Origin: Spirosoma sordidisoli
GTDB lineage: Bacteria > Bacteroidota > Bacteroidia > Cytophagales > Spirosomataceae
DNA length: 64,000 nucleotides
Direction: 5' to 3'
NCBI RefSeq assembly: GCF_004138325.1
Contig: NZ_SBLB01000012.1
Span: 62,001 to 126,000 of the forward strand
Position numbers and translations under genes: made by a program. The notes beneath the pieces were generated by a model. The model was not told the DNA's origin. It saw nothing but the letters and a program-made list of their open reading frames with translations, and searched no databases. Below, piece by piece: positions 54,640-64,000 of the stretch. Position 1 is the first letter of the stretch. Each line of letters opens with the position of its first letter.

Positions 54640-54935
54640 TGAGTTTCATTGACGAATTGACTCCAAAAAAAACGATACTTCTAACGCCTTTAGTTGGTCT
54701 TCGTGGTGCAGAAGATTACTAAGGTCACTACGTTGCTTGTATTTGTTAATCAGGTTAAGTAAGCCATTAGTAAGCATAGCGTAGTGGATAAGCAATCGAT
54801 ATAATAAATAAGGTGGTTATCGCGAGGTAGTGCCCAATGGATGCCTCTAAAATTCTGTAACTCCACGAGTGAATCTTGTAACAACCAGGCTGTGCAGTCG
54901 GCAGTTAATAATGTGTACAAACGTTTCTCAACGCG
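54640..54935. other. Intergenic region before DUF305 genes
   Basis: About 296 bp with no supported coding region. It contains TCTGTAAC (54854-54861) and CTTGTAAC (54875-54882), 21 bp apart, and TTGTAACAAC (54876-54885), which resembles the complement of GTTATTACAA in front of the regulator at 52595. The last 40 bp are AT-rich and probably hold the promoter. Confidence 0.35.
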
Positions 54936-55565
54936 ATGAAAAATACGTTAGTTGGCCAGATGGCATTAGTTGCTTCACTGGCATGGACCATTGCAGCCTG
55001 TACTGACAGCAACGACGGGCTTAAACCTCAGGCACATGACGCGAACGTCTATCAGCAAATCATGCACACGAACATGGCCCAGATGAACGCCATGAAAATG
55101 ACGGGCGACGCGGATCATGATTTTGCGATGATGATGTCGATGCACCATCAAGGGGCTATTGACATGGCCAATCAAGAACTAAAAAATGGTACCGATCAAA
55201 CCATTAAGGCAATGGCGCAAACCATTACTACCTCCCAGACAAAGGAAAAAGCACAACTTGCTCAATTCCTAATTGGGCATCAGGCCACTGCATCGACTGC
55301 CGGACAGTCGTTCGATATGATGGCCATGCAGGTCATGGAAAAAATGATGAAAGCGCAGGATACCCGCTTCCTCACGGGTACGTCCGACGTTGATTTTTCA
55401 TCCTTGATGATCGACCATCACCAAAGTGCCCTGGAAATGGCTCAGCTCGAGTTGACATATGGCAAGGTGGATTCGATGCGTCAAATGGCTCAGATGATTA
55501 TTGATGAGCAAAAGACTGAGATCAGCCAGTTTCAGGACTGGCTGATTAAAAACAAGCCCTACTAA
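54936..55565 (+). CDS. DUF305 lipoprotein
   Basis: 209 residues. Signal peptide with lipobox IAAC. Two DUF305 half-domains: HDFAMMMSMHHQGAIDMANQEL and DVDFSSLMIDHHQSALEMAQLEL, each with the M/HH-Q-A metal-binding pattern. DUF305 proteins (CopM-like) bind copper and silver in the periplasm. A 18-bp palindrome follows the stop codon, then a paralogous DUF305 gene. Confidence 0.9.
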   Translation: MKNTLVGQMALVASLAWTIAACTDSNDGLKPQAHDANVYQQIMHTNMAQMNAMKMTGDADHDFAMMMSMHHQGAIDMANQELKNGTDQTIKAMAQTITTSQTKEKAQLAQFLIGHQATASTAGQSFDMMAMQVMEKMMKAQDTRFLTGTSDVDFSSLMIDHHQSALEMAQLELTYGKVDSMRQMAQMIIDEQKTEISQFQDWLIKNKPY

Positions 55566-56279: not shown

Positions 56280-58961
56280 TCAAAAGTTATACCCCAATCC
56301 GCCGGCAACGGTTTTGTACCGCGTGTCATAATCCGTATGAAGAAACAGATTTTTCGTGACGGTATATTGCAGTTCTACATGTGCTCGCACGTAGCCCCCT
56401 ACCAACCATTGCGTCTGATACTGAAAATCTAAGCGTGGAAATAGCATTTGTTGGCCACTCAGTTGAAAGCGGACATTACCCCGTGTGTCGAGTTTAACTT
56501 CCGATTGAATCAAAAACGGCAACATATACCGAATACCCGCTACTGGCCGGATAATACGCCGACCCCCAACAGGCGTTCCACCGTCTTCGGGACGTACCCG
56601 GCGCAGGAACTCTTCGTTTCCTCCATCAATGCCGGCAAATACCCGAAACCAGTCGCCGAGGTAGCGTTCATAATCGAGGTCAAACTCGAAGCGATTCGTG
56701 CGCCAGTCGTGGTCTCCACCCGCAACAATGGCGTTTTTGTTGTTGGACACATTTAAGGCGAAGTAATTAAGCGGGTAGCCTGGTTGCAGATACCCCCAGA
56801 CAAATGGTTGGTTGTCGCGCATGTCGCGCAAATGCAGCTTCTGAATATTGGCGATGGACGAATCAGGTTTGTCGCCATAACTGACTACGCGCGCCATGCC
56901 GCTGAGCATATGGTAGAGCAGGTGGCAATGAAAAAACCAGTCCTTGTCATCGTCGGCCATAAACTCAATCGTGACGTTTTCCATCGGCGATACATTCACC
57001 GTATGCTTGAGCGGTGAATACTGCTCCTGTCCGTTGAGGACCCGGAAGTAATGACCATGCAGGTGGATGGGGTGCATCATCATGGTGTTGTTCATGAGCC
57101 GCATCCGCACAATCTCACCCCGTCGAATCTGAATCATATCCGCCCGTGACAAAGGCTGCCCGTTGAATCCCCAGATGTAGCGAAACATGTTGCCCGTTAA
57201 GGTGAGCGGGATCTCGCGGATAGGGTGATTGGCCGGAAAGACAATCGGTTCAGGCGATTTAAGAATACTATAATCGATCGTATTTTGCTCATCCATCATG
57301 CTCATGCCTCGGTCCGACATTTCGGCCATTCCTCCACTGTTCATACCCTTCATTCCGGCCATGTCACCTGGCTTGTTGCCCATGTTCATCTGGCCGTGAT
57401 CCATTCCGGCCATGTCGTCCTGCTTTTCACGCGCCGTTTTTTTAGTTGGCATCGAATCCGTTTTCATGGACATTTTACCGTGATCCATACCGGGCATGGA
57501 TGAGTGATCCATTTGCCCGTGGTTCATGCTCGACGTATCCATCTTACCATCTTTGGTCGTGTTCATACCCCCCATGTTCATACCACTATGGTCCATGCCA
57601 CCCATTGATCCAGCCGATTTTGTTGGTTTAGCGGCTTTTTTTGCCGGGGCGGGCTTATTTGCCGTCGGCTTTCCGCTCATATCCATCTGGGTGTGATTCA
57701 TTCCTGCCATGTTGTGCATCATAGGGCCGTTCATATCCAGGTTGGCCTGAGCCGTTGTGTCGGTTTTGCCCATGTTCATCGTACCCATGCCCATGCCGCC
57801 CATCCGGCTCATGTTAGCGGTAAGCTTGTAAAGATCAGGACGGGGAATTGTTGGCGCATAACGGGCCGGACCAGTGCCAAGCAGGGCTGTTGCATAACCC
57901 GATCCGTCCTGCGCGGAGGCTCGCACTTCGAAGGCACCCCCTTGAGGTACGGTAATAACAAAGTCGTAGGTCTCGGCAATGGCGATCAACCGCCGGTTAA
58001 CGTCCACTGGCTGTACATCCAGGCCGTCAGCAGCGATGAGTTTCATGGGACCACCTGCGTAATTAAGGTGAAAATAGGTGGACGCACTGGCATTGATCAC
58101 GCGCAGCCGAACAGTTTGACCAGCCTTGATGTCCGGGTAGCGTATGGTGTCTTTGCCGTTAATCAGAAACCGATTATAATAGACATCCGAAATATCCATT
58201 GGGGCCATCTTCATCATCGACTGCCGCAGGTACGCCCCTACCGCCTTGTGCTGAATAATGCGGTTGAGCGACTGGACATTGCCTTTCTTGATCGAATACC
58301 ATTCGTTGCGCCGTTTCAAATTTTTAAGGATGTAAGCCGGATTCTCATCCGTCCAGTCGGAGAGCAACAAGACCAAATCATGGTCAACCTTGTACGCAGG
58401 CTTCTGGGGCTGAATGGCGATGGACCCATACACACCAACCTGCTCCTGATAACGCGTGTGCGAGTGGAACCAGTACGTACCTGACTGCACCAGTGGGTAC
58501 TCAAATGTGTAGGTGTCGCCCGCATGAATGGGTGGTGTATTTAGATAAGAAACACCATCTTGTTTGTTAGGTAGCAAAATGCCATGCCAGTGCAATGAGG
58601 TTTCCGTCTTCAACTTATTATGAACCCGTATGACGGCGACATCACCTTCCTTGAACCGCATGGTCGGGCCTGGAATACCCCCGTTAATCGTCATGGCCCG
58701 CTTCGGCTTGCCCGTAATCGTGACGGTCTGCTCATCGATAACCAGATCATACGTCACCCGCTTGCCGGTCGGTTTCACCTTCGCAAAAGCCTGTGGGCGC
58801 GACACGGGTAGCGAGGTAGGAACCACTGGAAAGTTCGACTTGTCGGGGCTGTATGGCCGGGCATTGGTCTGGTTCGCCGTGGGGGATTCGTGGTGCTCAT
58901 GCTGAGCGTACCCGGTGCTCCATAGTAGCAGGCAAACGGCTGTAAAAAACGTGTTTCTCAT
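56280..58961 (-). CDS. Multicopper oxidase with Met-rich insert and barrel-like tail
   Basis: 893 residues, longer than CopA/PcoA-type oxidases (about 600). Signal peptide ending TGYAQ. Copper ligands: LHWHGILLP (about residue 121), YWFHSHTRY (about 163), HPIHLHGHYF (about 630) and HCHLLYHMLSGM (about 675, type-1 Cu). A Met/His-rich insert of about 170 residues (around 390-560) has many MDHxxM repeats. Residues about 700-893 are beta-strand rich and end with GLGYNF, like a CopB-type outer-membrane barrel. It likely oxidises Cu(I) in the periplasm, and the C-terminus may anchor it at the outer membrane. Confidence 0.85.
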   Translation of the reverse strand: MRNTFFTAVCLLLWSTGYAQHEHHESPTANQTNARPYSPDKSNFPVVPTSLPVSRPQAFAKVKPTGKRVTYDLVIDEQTVTITGKPKRAMTINGGIPGPTMRFKEGDVAVIRVHNKLKTETSLHWHGILLPNKQDGVSYLNTPPIHAGDTYTFEYPLVQSGTYWFHSHTRYQEQVGVYGSIAIQPQKPAYKVDHDLVLLLSDWTDENPAYILKNLKRRNEWYSIKKGNVQSLNRIIQHKAVGAYLRQSMMKMAPMDISDVYYNRFLINGKDTIRYPDIKAGQTVRLRVINASASTYFHLNYAGGPMKLIAADGLDVQPVDVNRRLIAIAETYDFVITVPQGGAFEVRASAQDGSGYATALLGTGPARYAPTIPRPDLYKLTANMSRMGGMGMGTMNMGKTDTTAQANLDMNGPMMHNMAGMNHTQMDMSGKPTANKPAPAKKAAKPTKSAGSMGGMDHSGMNMGGMNTTKDGKMDTSSMNHGQMDHSSMPGMDHGKMSMKTDSMPTKKTAREKQDDMAGMDHGQMNMGNKPGDMAGMKGMNSGGMAEMSDRGMSMMDEQNTIDYSILKSPEPIVFPANHPIREIPLTLTGNMFRYIWGFNGQPLSRADMIQIRRGEIVRMRLMNNTMMMHPIHLHGHYFRVLNGQEQYSPLKHTVNVSPMENVTIEFMADDDKDWFFHCHLLYHMLSGMARVVSYGDKPDSSIANIQKLHLRDMRDNQPFVWGYLQPGYPLNYFALNVSNNKNAIVAGGDHDWRTNRFEFDLDYERYLGDWFRVFAGIDGGNEEFLRRVRPEDGGTPVGGRRIIRPVAGIRYMLPFLIQSEVKLDTRGNVRFQLSGQQMLFPRLDFQYQTQWLVGGYVRAHVELQYTVTKNLFLHTDYDTRYKTVAGGLGYNF

Positions 58962-59067: not shown

Positions 59068-59598
59068 CTACTCACTTTCTAGCTGGGCTAGTTTCGCTTT
59101 CATCTGCGCTATTTCTTTTTCCTGAGCGGTGATGATGTCGTCTTTTAACTTGACCAGTTCAGGGTCATTCAGTTTGGCTTCTTTCGCCATCAAAATGGCC
59201 GCAGCGTGGTGAGGAATCATCGACTTGACGAACTGCCGATCCGACACTGCCGTTTGCTGCCGGATGAACCAGAAAAAGCCCACGAGGGCCAACGTACTCA
59301 CTGCGATGATGAGGCCATTGCGCCGTTTGTCGGGGTACATTGCCGACATCAACAGGACTTCAATAATGAGCATAGGCATGGTCATCAAACCCGCCATATA
59401 AAACTGATTGACATTGGGGACTACGTTGGCGAACCGATCAACCATCGAATACATCAGTACGTACATCGACGCGAATGACAGGATAGCCATGAGGGCCAGT
59501 TTGCCGTAGTGCCCTTCGTGCGTAGCTCCCGAATGGGGCATGGTATGGCCCGATTCGTTAGTTCGAGATTTGTCCGTGTGCTGCTTGTGTGTTTCCAT
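59068..59598 (-). CDS. DUF305 protein with membrane anchor
   Basis: 176 residues. A His/Ser-rich N-terminal tail, then three hydrophobic segments (about 35-55, 65-85, 95-112) and one DUF305 half-domain (SMIPHHAAAILMAKEAKLNDPELVKLKDDI) with a coiled C-terminal end. It differs from the other two DUF305 proteins in being membrane-embedded. It lies between the oxidase and the metallochaperone gene, all on the minus strand. Confidence 0.88.
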   Translation of the reverse strand: METHKQHTDKSRTNESGHTMPHSGATHEGHYGKLALMAILSFASMYVLMYSMVDRFANVVPNVNQFYMAGLMTMPMLIIEVLLMSAMYPDKRRNGLIIAVSTLALVGFFWFIRQQTAVSDRQFVKSMIPHHAAAILMAKEAKLNDPELVKLKDDIITAQEKEIAQMKAKLAQLESE

Positions 59599-59629: not shown

Positions 59630-59661
59630 TAAGCTGCCTGACCGGGTGGCCAGGCAGCTTA
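59630..59661 (-). terminator. Hairpin terminator after metallochaperone gene
   Basis: TAAGCTGCCTG (59630-59640) pairs with CAGGCAGCTTA (59651-59661). On the minus strand it is followed by TTTGTTTG, so it probably ends the copA-chaperone transcript before the DUF305 gene. Confidence 0.65.
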
Positions 59662-59714
59662 CAAGATTCAGGGGATTCCGTTGCAAAACTTTTGGTAACC
59701 AGCTCGAACCGCCA

Positions 59715-59936
59715 TTACGGCCGTGGTATTGGTTCGGCCTTATAGCCCGCCTGCTCGACTGCCTTGCGCACGGCCTCGCCGACGCGGTTATCCGTCGTTT
59801 GCACGGTCAAAATTTTGTCGGGATTGCCTGTATCGACGTTCCAGCCATCCACTTGTTCGATGGCATTGAGAAAAGGCGTTACAGCCGCTACGCAGCCGCC
59901 ACATTTGATGTTGGTTTTGAAATTCAGCGTTTCCAT
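59715..59936 (-). CDS. Heavy-metal-associated (HMA) metallochaperone
   Basis: 73 residues from the ATG before ETLNFKTN; an upstream ATG 10 codons away is weaker. It is a single HMA ferredoxin-like domain with the metal-binding motif KCGGCVAAVTPFLN (CxxC). The conserved Met before CxxC in most copper chaperones is Lys here. It would carry Cu(I) to CopA, whose gene is directly upstream (44 bp apart). Confidence 0.9.
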   Translation of the reverse strand: METLNFKTNIKCGGCVAAVTPFLNAIEQVDGWNVDTGNPDKILTVQTTDNRVGEAVRKAVEQAGYKAEPIPRP

Positions 59937-59980
59937 AGGAGTCTTGGTTGATACTCGGTTACACAATCAGATGGAGCCGA

Positions 59981-62248
59981 CTACAGCTTTGTTCTTCGTA
60001 GCCGCAAGCTATTGCTGACGACCGACACGGAACTAAGGGCCATCGCGGCCCCGGCGATCATCGGATTCAGCAAAAATCCGTTGATGGGATACAGTACCCC
60101 GGCAGCTATCGGGATACCGATGAGGTTATAAATGAAGGCCCAAAACAGGTTTTGGCGGATCGTCTGCACCGTTCGCCGGGACAGGTAGAGGGCTTTAGGT
60201 ACGCTATTCAGATCAGACGTGATGAGCGTCATCTTGGCCACATCCATTGCAATATCGGACCCCCGACCCATCGCGATGCTGACATCGGCCTGCGCCAGGG
60301 CCTGCGAGTCGTTGATGCCGTCGCCGACCATCGCGACCACCTTTCCTTTTGCCTGTAGTTCCTGCACCAAGGCGGCCTTGTCGGCGGGTAATGCCTCCGC
60401 CCGGAAATCGCTGATGCCAACGGCTTTGGCCACGGCCTCGGCAGTTTGGGGGTTATCACCGGTCATCATGTACACGGCGATGCCCCTCTTCTTCAAGGTG
60501 TGAATGGCCTCCCGCGAGGTTTGTTTGACCGGGTCGGCAATCGCGATGGCTGCCAGAATCTGCTGCTCGTCGGCAAAGTAAATGACGGTTTTAGCTTCGT
60601 CCTGCCAGCGGCTCACTAACCCGTTTAACGTCGCCAGTTGATCGGCGAGACCCCGCTCGGCCAGTAGTCGGCGGTTGCCAACCAGGTAAGCCTGACCGTT
60701 GTAGCGACCCGTCACCCCCCGGCCCGTCAAGCTCTCGAAGCCATCGAGTTGAATGCCCGAAACGCCTTCCGTTTTCAACCGCGCCACTACCGCTTCGGCC
60801 AGGGGGTGTTCCGACTGGCTTTCGAGGGTGAATAGTACCTGTGGGAGAATGGATTCGTTGACCGGTTTAGTAACCCAGGTCAAATCCGTCACCGTGGGCT
60901 TTCCTTCCGTAATCGTGCCAGTCTTGTCCAGAATAACCGTGTCAACCTTGTAGCCCAATTCCAAGCTCTCCGCATCTTTAATGAGGATGTTGTTGTCGGC
61001 TCCCTTGCCCACGCCGACCATAATGGCCGTTGGCGTAGCGAGTCCCAGCGCACAGGGGCAGGCAATGACCAACACGGTTACGGAAGTGAGTAGGGCGTGG
61101 GTAAAGCCATTGTCACCACCTACGATCATCCAGACCGCAAACGTCAGAATGGCGATGCCAATGACGACGGGTACGAAGATCCCTGCGATCTTGTCGACTA
61201 ATTTTTGAACGGGGGCTTTACTACCCTGGGCTTCCTGCACCATCCGAATAATCTGCGCCAGTATGGTGTCACCGCCCACTTTCTGCGCGGTGAAGCGAAA
61301 CGCCCCTTTCTGGTTGATAGTGCCGGCAAAGACCGACTCCCCAACCCGTTTCTCGACGGGTATCGGTTCACCCAAAATCATGCTTTCATCGACGAACGAG
61401 GTACCCGATTCGACGACCCCATCAACGGGAATTTTCTCGCCCGGACGAACCGCGATTACCTGCCCGACCCGCACCTGCGCGATGGGAATCTCCTGCTCCT
61501 CGTTACCGTTCATGACGCGAACGGTTTTGGGCTGTAGCCCCATTAGCTTCTTGAGAGCCGACGTCGTATTCGACTTAGCTTTCTCTTCGAGCAGCTTGCC
61601 GAGCGAGATAAAGGCAATCACTACCGCAGCGGCCTCGAAGTAAACGTGGGGGTGCAGCCCCCGGCGATGCCAAAAATCAGGATTCAGGGTGTTGAACGTA
61701 CTAAACAAAAAGGCGATACCCGTACTGAGCGCGACCAGCGTATCCATGTTGGCTTTGCCGTGCCGCGCCTGCTTCCAGGCGTTGACGAAGTACGACCGGC
61801 CCAGCCAAAAAACCACTGGAGCCGACAGGGCCATCATGATGTAATTGGCGTAAGGAGCCTGCATGAAAAACATGCCTAGCACGACGACGGGTACCGATAA
61901 AATGCCCGCCCATAGGGTGCGCTTTTTGAGCGATTCGTACTGTCGTTGCTGGGCTTCGGCCTGTACTGCTTGCGGGTCTTCCGTATCGAATACCAAATCG
62001 TAGCCAATCGAGCGGATTGCCTGTTGCAAACCCTCCTGGTCGATGGCTTCGGGATCGTATTCGACGGTTGCCGATTGGTTGGCGTAATTGACGGCTGCCT
62101 TCTGCACCCCCGGCGTGTTTGTCAGTATGGATTCGACGCTGACGGCACAGGCTGCACAGGTCATCTCCAAGACGGGAAACGTCTGCTTGGTCGTCAGCCC
62201 TTCGTTGACCTTAGTTCGACGGGCTTGTTGGGTGAGTTGCGCTTCCAT
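59981..62248 (-). CDS. copA: Copper-translocating P1B-type ATPase
   Basis: 755 residues from the ATG before EAQLTQQA. One N-terminal HMA domain with MTCAAC (C31/C34). Membrane block with CPC ([12 protein letters not shown], about residue 396). Phosphorylation site DKTGT (about 441), nucleotide-binding HP motif (SEHPLAEA), hinge [14 protein letters not shown] (about 640). The C-terminus [16 protein letters not shown] has the MxxSS motif of CopA-type Cu(I) pumps. It exports Cu(I) from the cytoplasm. Preceded by an HMA-AraC regulator gene (111 bp) on the same strand. Confidence 0.95.
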
Positions 62249-62359
62249 AGGTGGACAATTAAGTTGATACCACAAAGGTCAGCAAGCAGGTATGGGGGTA
62301 CGTTACACAATTCCCCCCCGACGTTTGTAAGATTCAGTAGGCGGGTGAATCCCCTCCAC

Positions 62360-62968
62360 TTAGTGGGCAGACTCCATCCCGTTGCGTTGCAATTGCTGCT
62401 TGTCGCGCCGGATGTCACGGAAGTGACTGGGCGAAAAACTGGTCAACTTTTTAAATTGATTTGATAGGTGCTGAGCGCTACTAAAACCGGTGCGATAGGC
62501 GATGTCGGCCAACGTCAGATCGGTATAGACGAGAAGTTCTTTGGTCCTATCCAACCGCCGACTGATTACGTATTTTTCAAGCGTAATGCCTTCCTGAACA
62601 GAAAATAGCGCACTCAGCGCATCATAGCTCAGGCCGACTCGCTGAGCAAGCTGCTCAGAATACCGAGTCGTTTCTTCACCGAGATTATCGCAGCTAACCA
62701 CATCCTCGACGGCCTCTTTGATGCGTTGCACTAAGATTTTCTTCGGGTCGGTCAACACAGCAAACCCCTGCGTTTCCAGAGCCGATTGCAGTAGTGTTTC
62801 TTGCTCAGGCGAGACCTTCCCCTCCACCACGACATGCCCCAACGAAACCGACAAAACGGGTAATTTGAGTTGTTCAAATACAGCCTGCACAGCGTCTATG
62901 CAACGGCCACAGACCATTCCCCGAATGCGAAAGGTGGTGGTTTGATCGGTTAGAACGTCGGGGTTCAT
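62360..62968 (-). CDS. HMA-domain fused AraC-family regulator
   Basis: 202 residues. Residues about 10-75 are a heavy-metal-associated domain with GMVCGRCIDAVQAVF (M-x-C-x2-C). The rest is an AraC DNA-binding domain (SRRLDRTKELLVYTDLTLADIAYRTGFSSAQHLSNQFKKLTSFSPSHFRDIR) with both helix-turn-helix units. No cupin or sugar sensor is present, so metal binding to the HMA part is the likely signal. It would regulate copA and neighbours. It is divergent from the CopB-like ATPase at the window end. Confidence 0.9.
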   Translation of the reverse strand: MNPDVLTDQTTTFRIRGMVCGRCIDAVQAVFEQLKLPVLSVSLGHVVVEGKVSPEQETLLQSALETQGFAVLTDPKKILVQRIKEAVEDVVSCDNLGEETTRYSEQLAQRVGLSYDALSALFSVQEGITLEKYVISRRLDRTKELLVYTDLTLADIAYRTGFSSAQHLSNQFKKLTSFSPSHFRDIRRDKQQLQRNGMESAH

Positions 62969-63206
62969 CAGTGCAGAATTTAAAGGGGGGAGGCTGGTTA
63001 CGATAGCCTGATTAGCTACCTGATGATAACAAAAGTCGTAGACAAAGCTATCCCTCGGAATGTAGCCAACGCTTGCAAAATTTCCCGGCGAGTCTTACAG
63101 AATTTCTAAAACGTATCCTTTTCCGATGCGACAAGTGTTACTACTAAACGAACCTTTACCCCTGGTGAATTGGTATCGTCAACTCAACCGATAGTTCCCG
63201 CGCGTT

Positions 63207-64000
63207 ATGAAGAAGCATCAACATCACTACGTTCTCCACGGCCTTCAAACTCAAGAACAGGCACAGGCAGTGCAGCAGGCTTTACTTCGGCAACCGGGTG
63301 TTCAGGATGCCCACGTGTCGGTGCAGCCGCCCGAAGTGCATCTAACTGTCGATAAACATCCGTCAATGGACGCCTTGCAACAGGCGGTAGCCCAAGTCGG
63401 CGCGTTTCACCTGATGGAGAAACAAGCTGAGGTGAACCACCATCACGGCCATCATTCGATGCCTGCTGATGAAACCGTACCCGTGGTTCACCCGCACCAT
63501 CAATCTGATGCAGCGATACCAGCCGAAGAGCAGGCACTGCAACACATCGGTCATGACGAGCATAGCGGGCCTGATCGTGAGCATCATCGCCATGCCGAGA
63601 TGGACCATGCGGGGATGGATCACGGGGCAATGGGTCATGCCAATCACGGGGCGGGACACGATCACGGGGCGATGATTGCCGATTTCCTGCGTCGGTTCTG
63701 GGTGTGCCTATTACTGTCGGTGCCAGTGGTGGCCCTATCGATGATGTTCCAGGAGTTGGCTGGCTACACCCTTGATTTTGCCTTCCGGGAACCCCTCGTC
63801 ATTGCTCTGGCTACGCTGATCTATTTCTACGGGGGATGGCCCTTTTTGTCAGGCATGATCGGCGAGTTACGTACCCGAAAGCTTGGCATGATGACGCTTG
63901 TCGCCGTAGCGATCACGGCAGCCTACGTATACAGTGTAGCCGTTTCGGTAGGCTGGCTCAAGGGGATGGATTTCTTCTGGGAACTGGCTACCCTGATCGA
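63207..64000 (+). CDS. CopB-like P1B ATPase, N-terminal part (cut by window end)
   Basis: About 264 codons, open at the right edge. A degenerate HMA-like beginning (HHYVLHGLQTQEQAQAVQQALL) with no CxxC, then a His-rich stretch (residues about 80-150, e.g. HDEHSGPDREHHRHAEMDH and HGAMGHANHGAGHDHGAM), then membrane helices (FWVCLLLSVPVVALSMMF, PLVIALATLIYFYGGWPFLSGM, LGMMTLVAVAITAAYVYSVAVSVGWL) and FFWELATLI. The His-rich head and FFWELATLI are typical of CopB/silver-copper type P1B-3 ATPases. It would export Cu or Ag; a short 5' gap follows the AraC gene. Confidence 0.85.
   Translation, partial: MKKHQHHYVLHGLQTQEQAQAVQQALLRQPGVQDAHVSVQPPEVHLTVDKHPSMDALQQAVAQVGAFHLMEKQAEVNHHHGHHSMPADETVPVVHPHHQSDAAIPAEEQALQHIGHDEHSGPDREHHRHAEMDHAGMDHGAMGHANHGAGHDHGAMIADFLRRFWVCLLLSVPVVALSMMFQELAGYTLDFAFREPLVIALATLIYFYGGWPFLSGMIGELRTRKLGMMTLVAVAITAAYVYSVAVSVGWLKGMDFFWELATLI

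Follow-up and report, generated by a model that had tools for sequence, protein, structure and literature searches.

The regulator gene and its copper locus

The window analysed here is a stretch of 64,000 nucleotides of Spirosoma sordidisoli (contig NZ_SBLB01000012.1), in which positions are counted from the first letter. It carries a gene for a two-domain regulator within a set of copper genes, as follows (strand in brackets):

54936 to 55565 (+): DUF305 protein, a predicted regulon member
56280 to 58961 (−): multicopper oxidase, Met/His-rich (ORF and Pfam)
59068 to 59598 (−): membrane protein with a DUF305 domain (ORF and Pfam)
59715 to 59966 (−): CopZ-like HMA protein with CGGC (HMA 24.3 bits against a cut-off of 24.8)
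59981 to 62248 (−): copA, a copper ATPase with P1B-1 signatures that also includes an HMA domain
62360 to 62968 (−): regulator gene, 202 aa from an ATG start, encoding an HMA-like domain (approximately residues 9–72, with GMVC20GRC23), a helix and an AraC-type DNA-binding domain (approximately residues 74–200)
63207 to 63998 (+): 5′ part of a divergent heavy-metal P1B ATPase, CopB-like, with CPH

An earlier note on this DNA had placed the regulator upstream of copA and divergent from a CopB-like ATPase, and both placements hold. Indeed, copA lies on the same strand, 3′ of the regulator gene after a gap of 111 bp, and the divergent ATPase starts at 63207 on the (+) strand; the label ‘CopB-like’ is right, since the complete gene of 803 aa (L178:9208–11616) combines CPH with a P1B-3-like C-terminus. 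The N-terminal HMA-like region of this ATPase lacks CxxC, and a His-rich stretch comes after it. Two HMA-type proteins, copA and the CopZ-like one, lie in the same cluster as the regulator; note that the CopZ-like ORF is listed from a TTG and that its true start is likely a later ATG. The copper island occurs in two parallel copies in the S. sordidisoli genome (G000), on contigs C4 (161,899 bp) and C6 (105,845 bp), which may be plasmids, since close relatives reside on plasmids.

Domain structure of the regulator

In the C-terminal part of the protein, Pfam detected the two-HTH DNA-binding domain by which AraC/XylS members are recognized (HTH_18 with 1.5e-19 at residues 107–185 and HTH_AraC with 4.3e-9). 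The N-terminal part reached 16.7 bits with Pfam HMA (PF00403), under the gathering cut-off of 24.8, and residues 11–71 matched the NCBIfam CopZ model at 3.2e-5 (24 bits, below the cut-off of 91); among the best 25 of 37 NCBIfam matches of the regulator, no model attained its own cut-off. Reading metal specificity from Pfam alone was rejected, since the HMA match remained under its cut-off.

The AlphaFold2 model, for which the input was a 40-row alignment with the first Met omitted, had a mean pLDDT of 92.6 and consisted of a ferredoxin-like, chaperone-type domain followed by AraC helices. By structural alignment, residues 73–200 resembled AraC-type domains with Z up to 13.7, the first six chains (Z 13.7 to 12.3) all being of this type, and residues 8–72 resembled GolB (Z 8.0), Atx1 (7.9), PacS (7.7) and CopZ (7.7). 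ACT domains matched the N-terminal fold about equally (Z to 7.8 against 7.7–8.0 for the HMA proteins), in a range where, according to the tool, Z values below 8 may reflect a common arrangement only. Since the two fold scores are about equal, it is the CxxC in loop 1, at the HMA position, that decides for an HMA-like domain, and the assignment relies on this position together with the weak CopZ-model match and the ferredoxin-like fold. In the 40-row family alignment, the M, the V and the second Cys are invariant, and the first Cys and the Arg are conserved in at least 90% of rows. The fusion of an AraC domain to a CxxC HMA-type domain, as proposed in the earlier note, is thus borne out by HTH_18, the fold and the CxxC, with a sub-threshold HMA score. 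Long Foldseek matches (Rns, ToxT and XylR) were discarded as evidence of full-length likeness, since they concern the AraC part only, with an rmsd of ~ 10 or more.

Family distribution and paralogs

With the alignment as query (E ≤ 1e-20), 142 of the 296 Bacteroidota genomes sampled contained a match to the regulator family, and relatives were also found in Ignavibacteria MAGs. Among 37 plasmid records with a match, 31 align over 80% or more of the query and the others over the AraC domain only. The best plasmid relative, from a Fibrella plasmid, displays 92.6% identity and a conserved gene order, and is annotated merely as ‘AraC family transcriptional regulator’. The S. sordidisoli genome itself holds seven copies with both domains, one of them degenerate and one of SxxC type (L005), and four intact CxRC copies are located on contigs C4 and C6. 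In the degenerate paralog (L003:2335–3129, the same gene as L174:7545–8339), which adjoins an intact copy and has a very long branch in the family tree, CxxC is replaced by TSRGL.

In our search of the open-access literature, no account of a regulator of the HMA-AraC type turned up; the family, large in Bacteroidota, is apparently undescribed. The parts, an HMA-like and an AraC domain, are ordinary, but the way in which they are joined seems undescribed. Beyond the single protein of the earlier note, our results delineate a phylum-wide family with a definable predicted regulon.

Cysteine classes and gene context

From 208 loci, we collected 227 distinct regulators (166 CxRC, 29 SxxC, 26 CxHC and 6 other), which are not population frequencies, since the loci were chosen by patterns, by hand and by similarity. 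Indeed, 80 loci came from a peptide-pattern scan with patterns including CxxC (the best 80 of 238), 80 were hand-picked among the listed best matches of the 296-genome alignment search, 10 came from the S. sordidisoli genome and its genus, and 20 CxHC and 18 SxxC regions were picked by similarity. Genes were called with a simple longest-ORF script, ATPases were typed by sequence motif, and the context counts exclude loci with short flanks.

Metal genes (P1B ATPase, RND, CusB, multicopper oxidase, SO_0444 and CDF) were found within 5 kb of 140/166 CxRC and 24/26 CxHC regulators, and of 1/29 SxxC regulators; a looser count gives 3/29 for the latter, two of them due to one untyped P-type ATPase (L265). 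Within the same distance, the copper-type P1B-1 ATPase accompanies 83/166 CxRC regulators and a multicopper oxidase 24/166, and a Zn/Cd-type ATPase accompanies 20/26 CxHC and 6/166 CxRC regulators. The neighbors of SxxC regulators include a PAS histidine kinase (9/29), a response regulator (9/29) and a cupin protein (11/29); this subfamily is represented by loci L142, L145, L150, L153, L159, L164, L171 and L263–L280.

In the family tree, CxHC forms one clade (SH-aLRT 100) and hence represents a single event, and SxxC is nested within CxRC, with three CxRC members branching with the SxxC group. An independent-pairs test gave no support for a link between cysteine class and metal context (3–4 pairs, 0 concordant), nor for one between CxHC and Zn ATPase (one pair only), and the links between class and context are for this reason stated as counts over related sequences. 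The association thus exists as a count, and repeated evolution is not supported, the independent lineages being few.

A predicted operator and its promoter

Comparison of twelve loci of the regulator's own clade yielded a direct repeat 5′ of the regulator in 12/12 and also 3′ of it, in the gap to copA, in 9/12. This training operator, aligned by eye, gave the predicted pattern AATYNTRYAA-N10-12-AATYNTRYAA (N11/12 for the sites of the window). The earlier note had pointed to both gaps (62249–62359 and 62969–63206) as places for conserved palindromes; conserved sites do occur in them, but palindromes were rejected, as the conserved elements are direct repeats. The sites and boxes of the window are:

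63073 to 63104 (−): predicted operator 5′ of the regulator, AATTCTGTAA-N12-AATTTTGCAA, 22-bp period
63043 to 63050 (−): −7 promoter box TAGCTTTG, 22 nt after the regulator operator
62303 to 62334 (−): predicted operator in the regulator-copA gap, AATCTTACAA-N12-AATTGTGTAA
62273 to 62280 (−): −7-like box GACCTTTG, 1 mismatch, 22 nt after the copA operator
59659 to 59690 (−): weaker operator match, 1 mismatch, 5′ of the DUF305 membrane protein and multicopper oxidase genes
54851 to 54881 (+): perfect operator match 55 bp 5′ of the DUF305 gene, without a clear −7 box at 21–22 nt

The first of these sites sits in the intergenic region common to the regulator and the divergent ATPase and is a probable autoregulation site. 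The sites at 54851 and 59659 are weaker, because both lack a −7 box where one would be expected and the latter also overlaps a hairpin (seen by eye).

The pattern was then applied to a test set of 154 CxRC regulators that do not belong to the training clade. A site (with at most 1 mismatch) was located within 400 bp 3′ of the gene in 44/154 cases (0.20 in dinucleotide shuffles) and within 400 bp 5′ of it in 15/154 (0.15 in shuffles), given that in tandem loci a single site may count as 3′ of one regulator and 5′ of the next; for most of the test regulators, the pattern detects no site. There are 58 distinct test sites, and 59/144 test loci have one. All 58 display a period of 21 bp, even though 20–22 were allowed, and the 20 training sites have a period of 21 (11 sites) or 22 (9 sites). 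When 308 regions were scanned, the period of 21 occurred in 59, and no other period between 10 and 60 in more than 3. The predicted site is in this way a tandem direct repeat of about two helical turns near a promoter, as is characteristic of AraC/XylS.

For the promoter, we searched for TAnnTTTG, the consensus of the Bacteroidota-type −7 box. Such a box (with at most 1 mismatch) follows 21–22 nt after the site in 43/58 test and 20/20 training sites, and is perfect for 10 and 11 of them, respectively; among the test sites, other adjacent offset pairs outside 20–23 give a box in at most 2. At copA, the box at 62273–62280 would start the transcript downstream of the TTG at 62275, so that the ATG at 62248, and not the upstream TTG, is likely the start of copA.

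On the genome scale, perfect operator copies number eight in 7.37 Mb vs 0 for the reversed control, all on two contigs, and four of the eight are training sites. With one mismatch, 17 sites were found vs 2 for the control, and 14 of the 17 fall on contigs C4 and C6, i.e., on 3.6% of the genome. Of these 14, twelve lie in front of a copper gene, a Cys-rich/CusA gene or a regulator gene, namely two regulators, two copA, DUF305 genes, two DUF305-multicopper oxidase pairs, two HYC_CC_PP-like proteins (under the cut-off of that model) and, twice, a Cys-rich gene 5′ of CusA (at 64 and 485 bp). The perfect copies at C4:127856–127887 and C6:41960–41991 face no clear target gene, and a one-mismatch site at C1:916841–916871 lies directly 3′ of the SxxC paralog and 5′ of a 410-aa protein that is probably exported. 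In genomes of genus g12 (G021, G025, G206, G222 and others), perfect operator-like matches outnumber the regulators, with few control matches; the number of perfect sites per genome goes up to 19, in G021, which has two regulators. Thus, the motif may be common to other regulators, and the surplus sites may belong to a wider regulon or to another regulator.

In the other two classes, SxxC regulators have an operator site 5′ in 3/29 and 3′ in 3/29 cases, above shuffles, so that the DNA specificity seems partly kept. None of the 26 CxHC regulators has a site by the copper-class pattern; their loci display TGCAn-type repeats with a 21-bp period in 14/26 (other periods from 14 to 29 in at most 2). 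This repeat was spotted by eye, and the loci that revealed it also supplied the count, for which the pattern was slightly looser than for CxRC; the count is thus not an independent test.

A candidate one-component copper sensor and activator

The earlier note had proposed a one-component copper regulator with an HMA-type sensor, and the evidence that can be computed (fold, CxxC, context and operator) mostly agrees. Altogether, we consider, with a probability of roughly 80%, that the regulator is a one-component Cu(I)-responsive sensor and transcriptional activator that would also control its own gene. The computed basis of this model comprises the predicted fold, the CxxC conservation, the gene context, the operator, the spacing and the promoter distance; from these, we infer Cu(I) binding, DNA binding, activation as opposed to repression, two protomers per site and an allosteric step.

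In the proposed mechanism, the chaperone-type N-terminal domain would bind Cu(I) with C20 and C23; the ion would come from the cytosolic pool or be handed over by CopZ-like proteins through ligand exchange. Cu(I) would alter the way in which two AraC domains engage the two half-sites, which are 21–22 bp apart on one DNA face and adjoin the −33 region. The regulator may then replace or contact this −33 region and recruit RNA polymerase to the TAnnTTTG promoter. Its targets would be copA and its own gene, to which the divergent pump and the genes for DUF305 proteins and multicopper oxidase can probably be added.

A first alternative is that the CxxC domain senses Ag(I), Au(I), Hg(II) or thiol oxidation, the copper genes being just one part of the response. 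CxxC pairs are able to form disulfides, the N-terminal fold also matches the gold protein GolB, and some paralogs adjoin general RND/MCO clusters; however, a P1B-1 ATPase near 83/166 CxRC regulators and a multicopper oxidase near 24 argue for copper, and we regard this alternative as improbable. It is likewise unlikely that the regulator is a repressor freed by copper. The operator adjoins the promoter, and sequence by itself does not tell activation from repression, but the protein has an AraC-type domain and the gap of 21–22 nt between site and box is fixed (43/58 test and 20/20 training sites). A fixed distance between site and box is typical of activators touching the −35 region, and it speaks for an activator when taken together with the AraC domain and with half-sites arranged in tandem on a single DNA face. 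Finally, a non-sensing oligomerization or ACT-like domain, with the regulation coming from elsewhere, would fit the similar scores of ACT domains and the SxxC subfamily, which retains the domain without the Cys pair, but is very unlikely given that the pair is nearly invariant at the HMA position in the 40-row alignment and that CxxC members mostly retain metal neighbors.

Relation to known copper regulators

The preferred reading, a Cu(I)-responsive activator, resembles CueR of the MerR family, which senses cytosolic Cu(I) as a one-component regulator and switches on copA and a multicopper oxidase gene: the regulator too is proposed to be a one-component Cu(I) activator of copA; the DNA-binding and sensor folds of CueR are unrelated to those of the regulator. 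The cut-off of the CueR model (TIGR02044) was passed in 0/296 Bacteroidota genomes and 1/14 control genomes, and the model is absent from the best 25 of 37 NCBIfam matches of the regulator. In the S. sordidisoli genome, its best match, on another contig, scored 32.6 bits vs the cut-off of 147.4. CsoR and CopY are repressors of copA operons that act via Cys-bound Cu(I), and their folds are unlike the regulator's. CsoR (PF02583) gave no match in the regulator at E 0.1 and none in the S. sordidisoli genome at E 0.001. CsoR-family matches occur in 86/296 genomes (9/142 regulator-bearing and 77/154 others), an apparent exclusion that is confounded by descent, since 65 of the 77 CsoR-matching genomes without the regulator come from one genome family.

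As to its parts, the regulator shares the ferredoxin-like fold with MxCxxC with CopZ/Atx1 chaperones and the N-terminal HMA domains of CopA, but, unlike CopZ/Atx1, its domain is fused to a DNA-binding domain and typically has an Arg before the second Cys. With AraC/XylS activators (AraC, MarA, SoxS and RhaS), it shares the DNA-binding domain and tandem half-sites 21–22 bp apart, whereas the sensor of AraC is an arm-and-cupin domain, unlike the HMA-like sensor here.

For the phylum, a 2024 study deals with the copper genes of a single member, Bizionia argentinensis (PMC11213822). The genes described there comprise P1B-1 ATPases, CusB and CopZ-like proteins; the MerR- and CopY-type proteins found lack the copper sites of their families, and the authors offer two proteins of the ArsR type as copper-sensor candidates; AraC is nowhere mentioned in the main text (PMC11213822). 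The phylum and the kinds of genes are thus the same as in our study, but the candidates are ArsR proteins there and AraC-type proteins here. In this phylum, where such sensors are poorly known, the regulator family is a good copper-sensor candidate; it is widespread (142/296), often found at copper operons and now provided with a predicted operator and promoter geometry, which makes the question of how Bacteroidota sense cytosolic copper testable.

More tentatively, and with less than even confidence, the metallochaperone-domain sensor may define a phylum-wide class of metalloregulators that would receive metal by CopZ/CopA-style docking and ligand exchange, and in which the choice of metal would shift with one residue of the loop (CxRC or CxHC) and with the half-site (AATYTTRYAA for copper, TGCAC/TGCAA for zinc/cadmium, both with a 21-bp period). 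The CxHC and SxxC relatives represent natural comparisons for metal choice and for the loss of sensing, respectively. In addition, tandem regulator pairs (NMVCxRC with GMVCxRC) were seen directly 5′ of copA or CusBA genes in L028, L034, L035, L038, L046, L059, L079, L084 and L108, and it is possible that the two regulators of such a pair form heterodimers.
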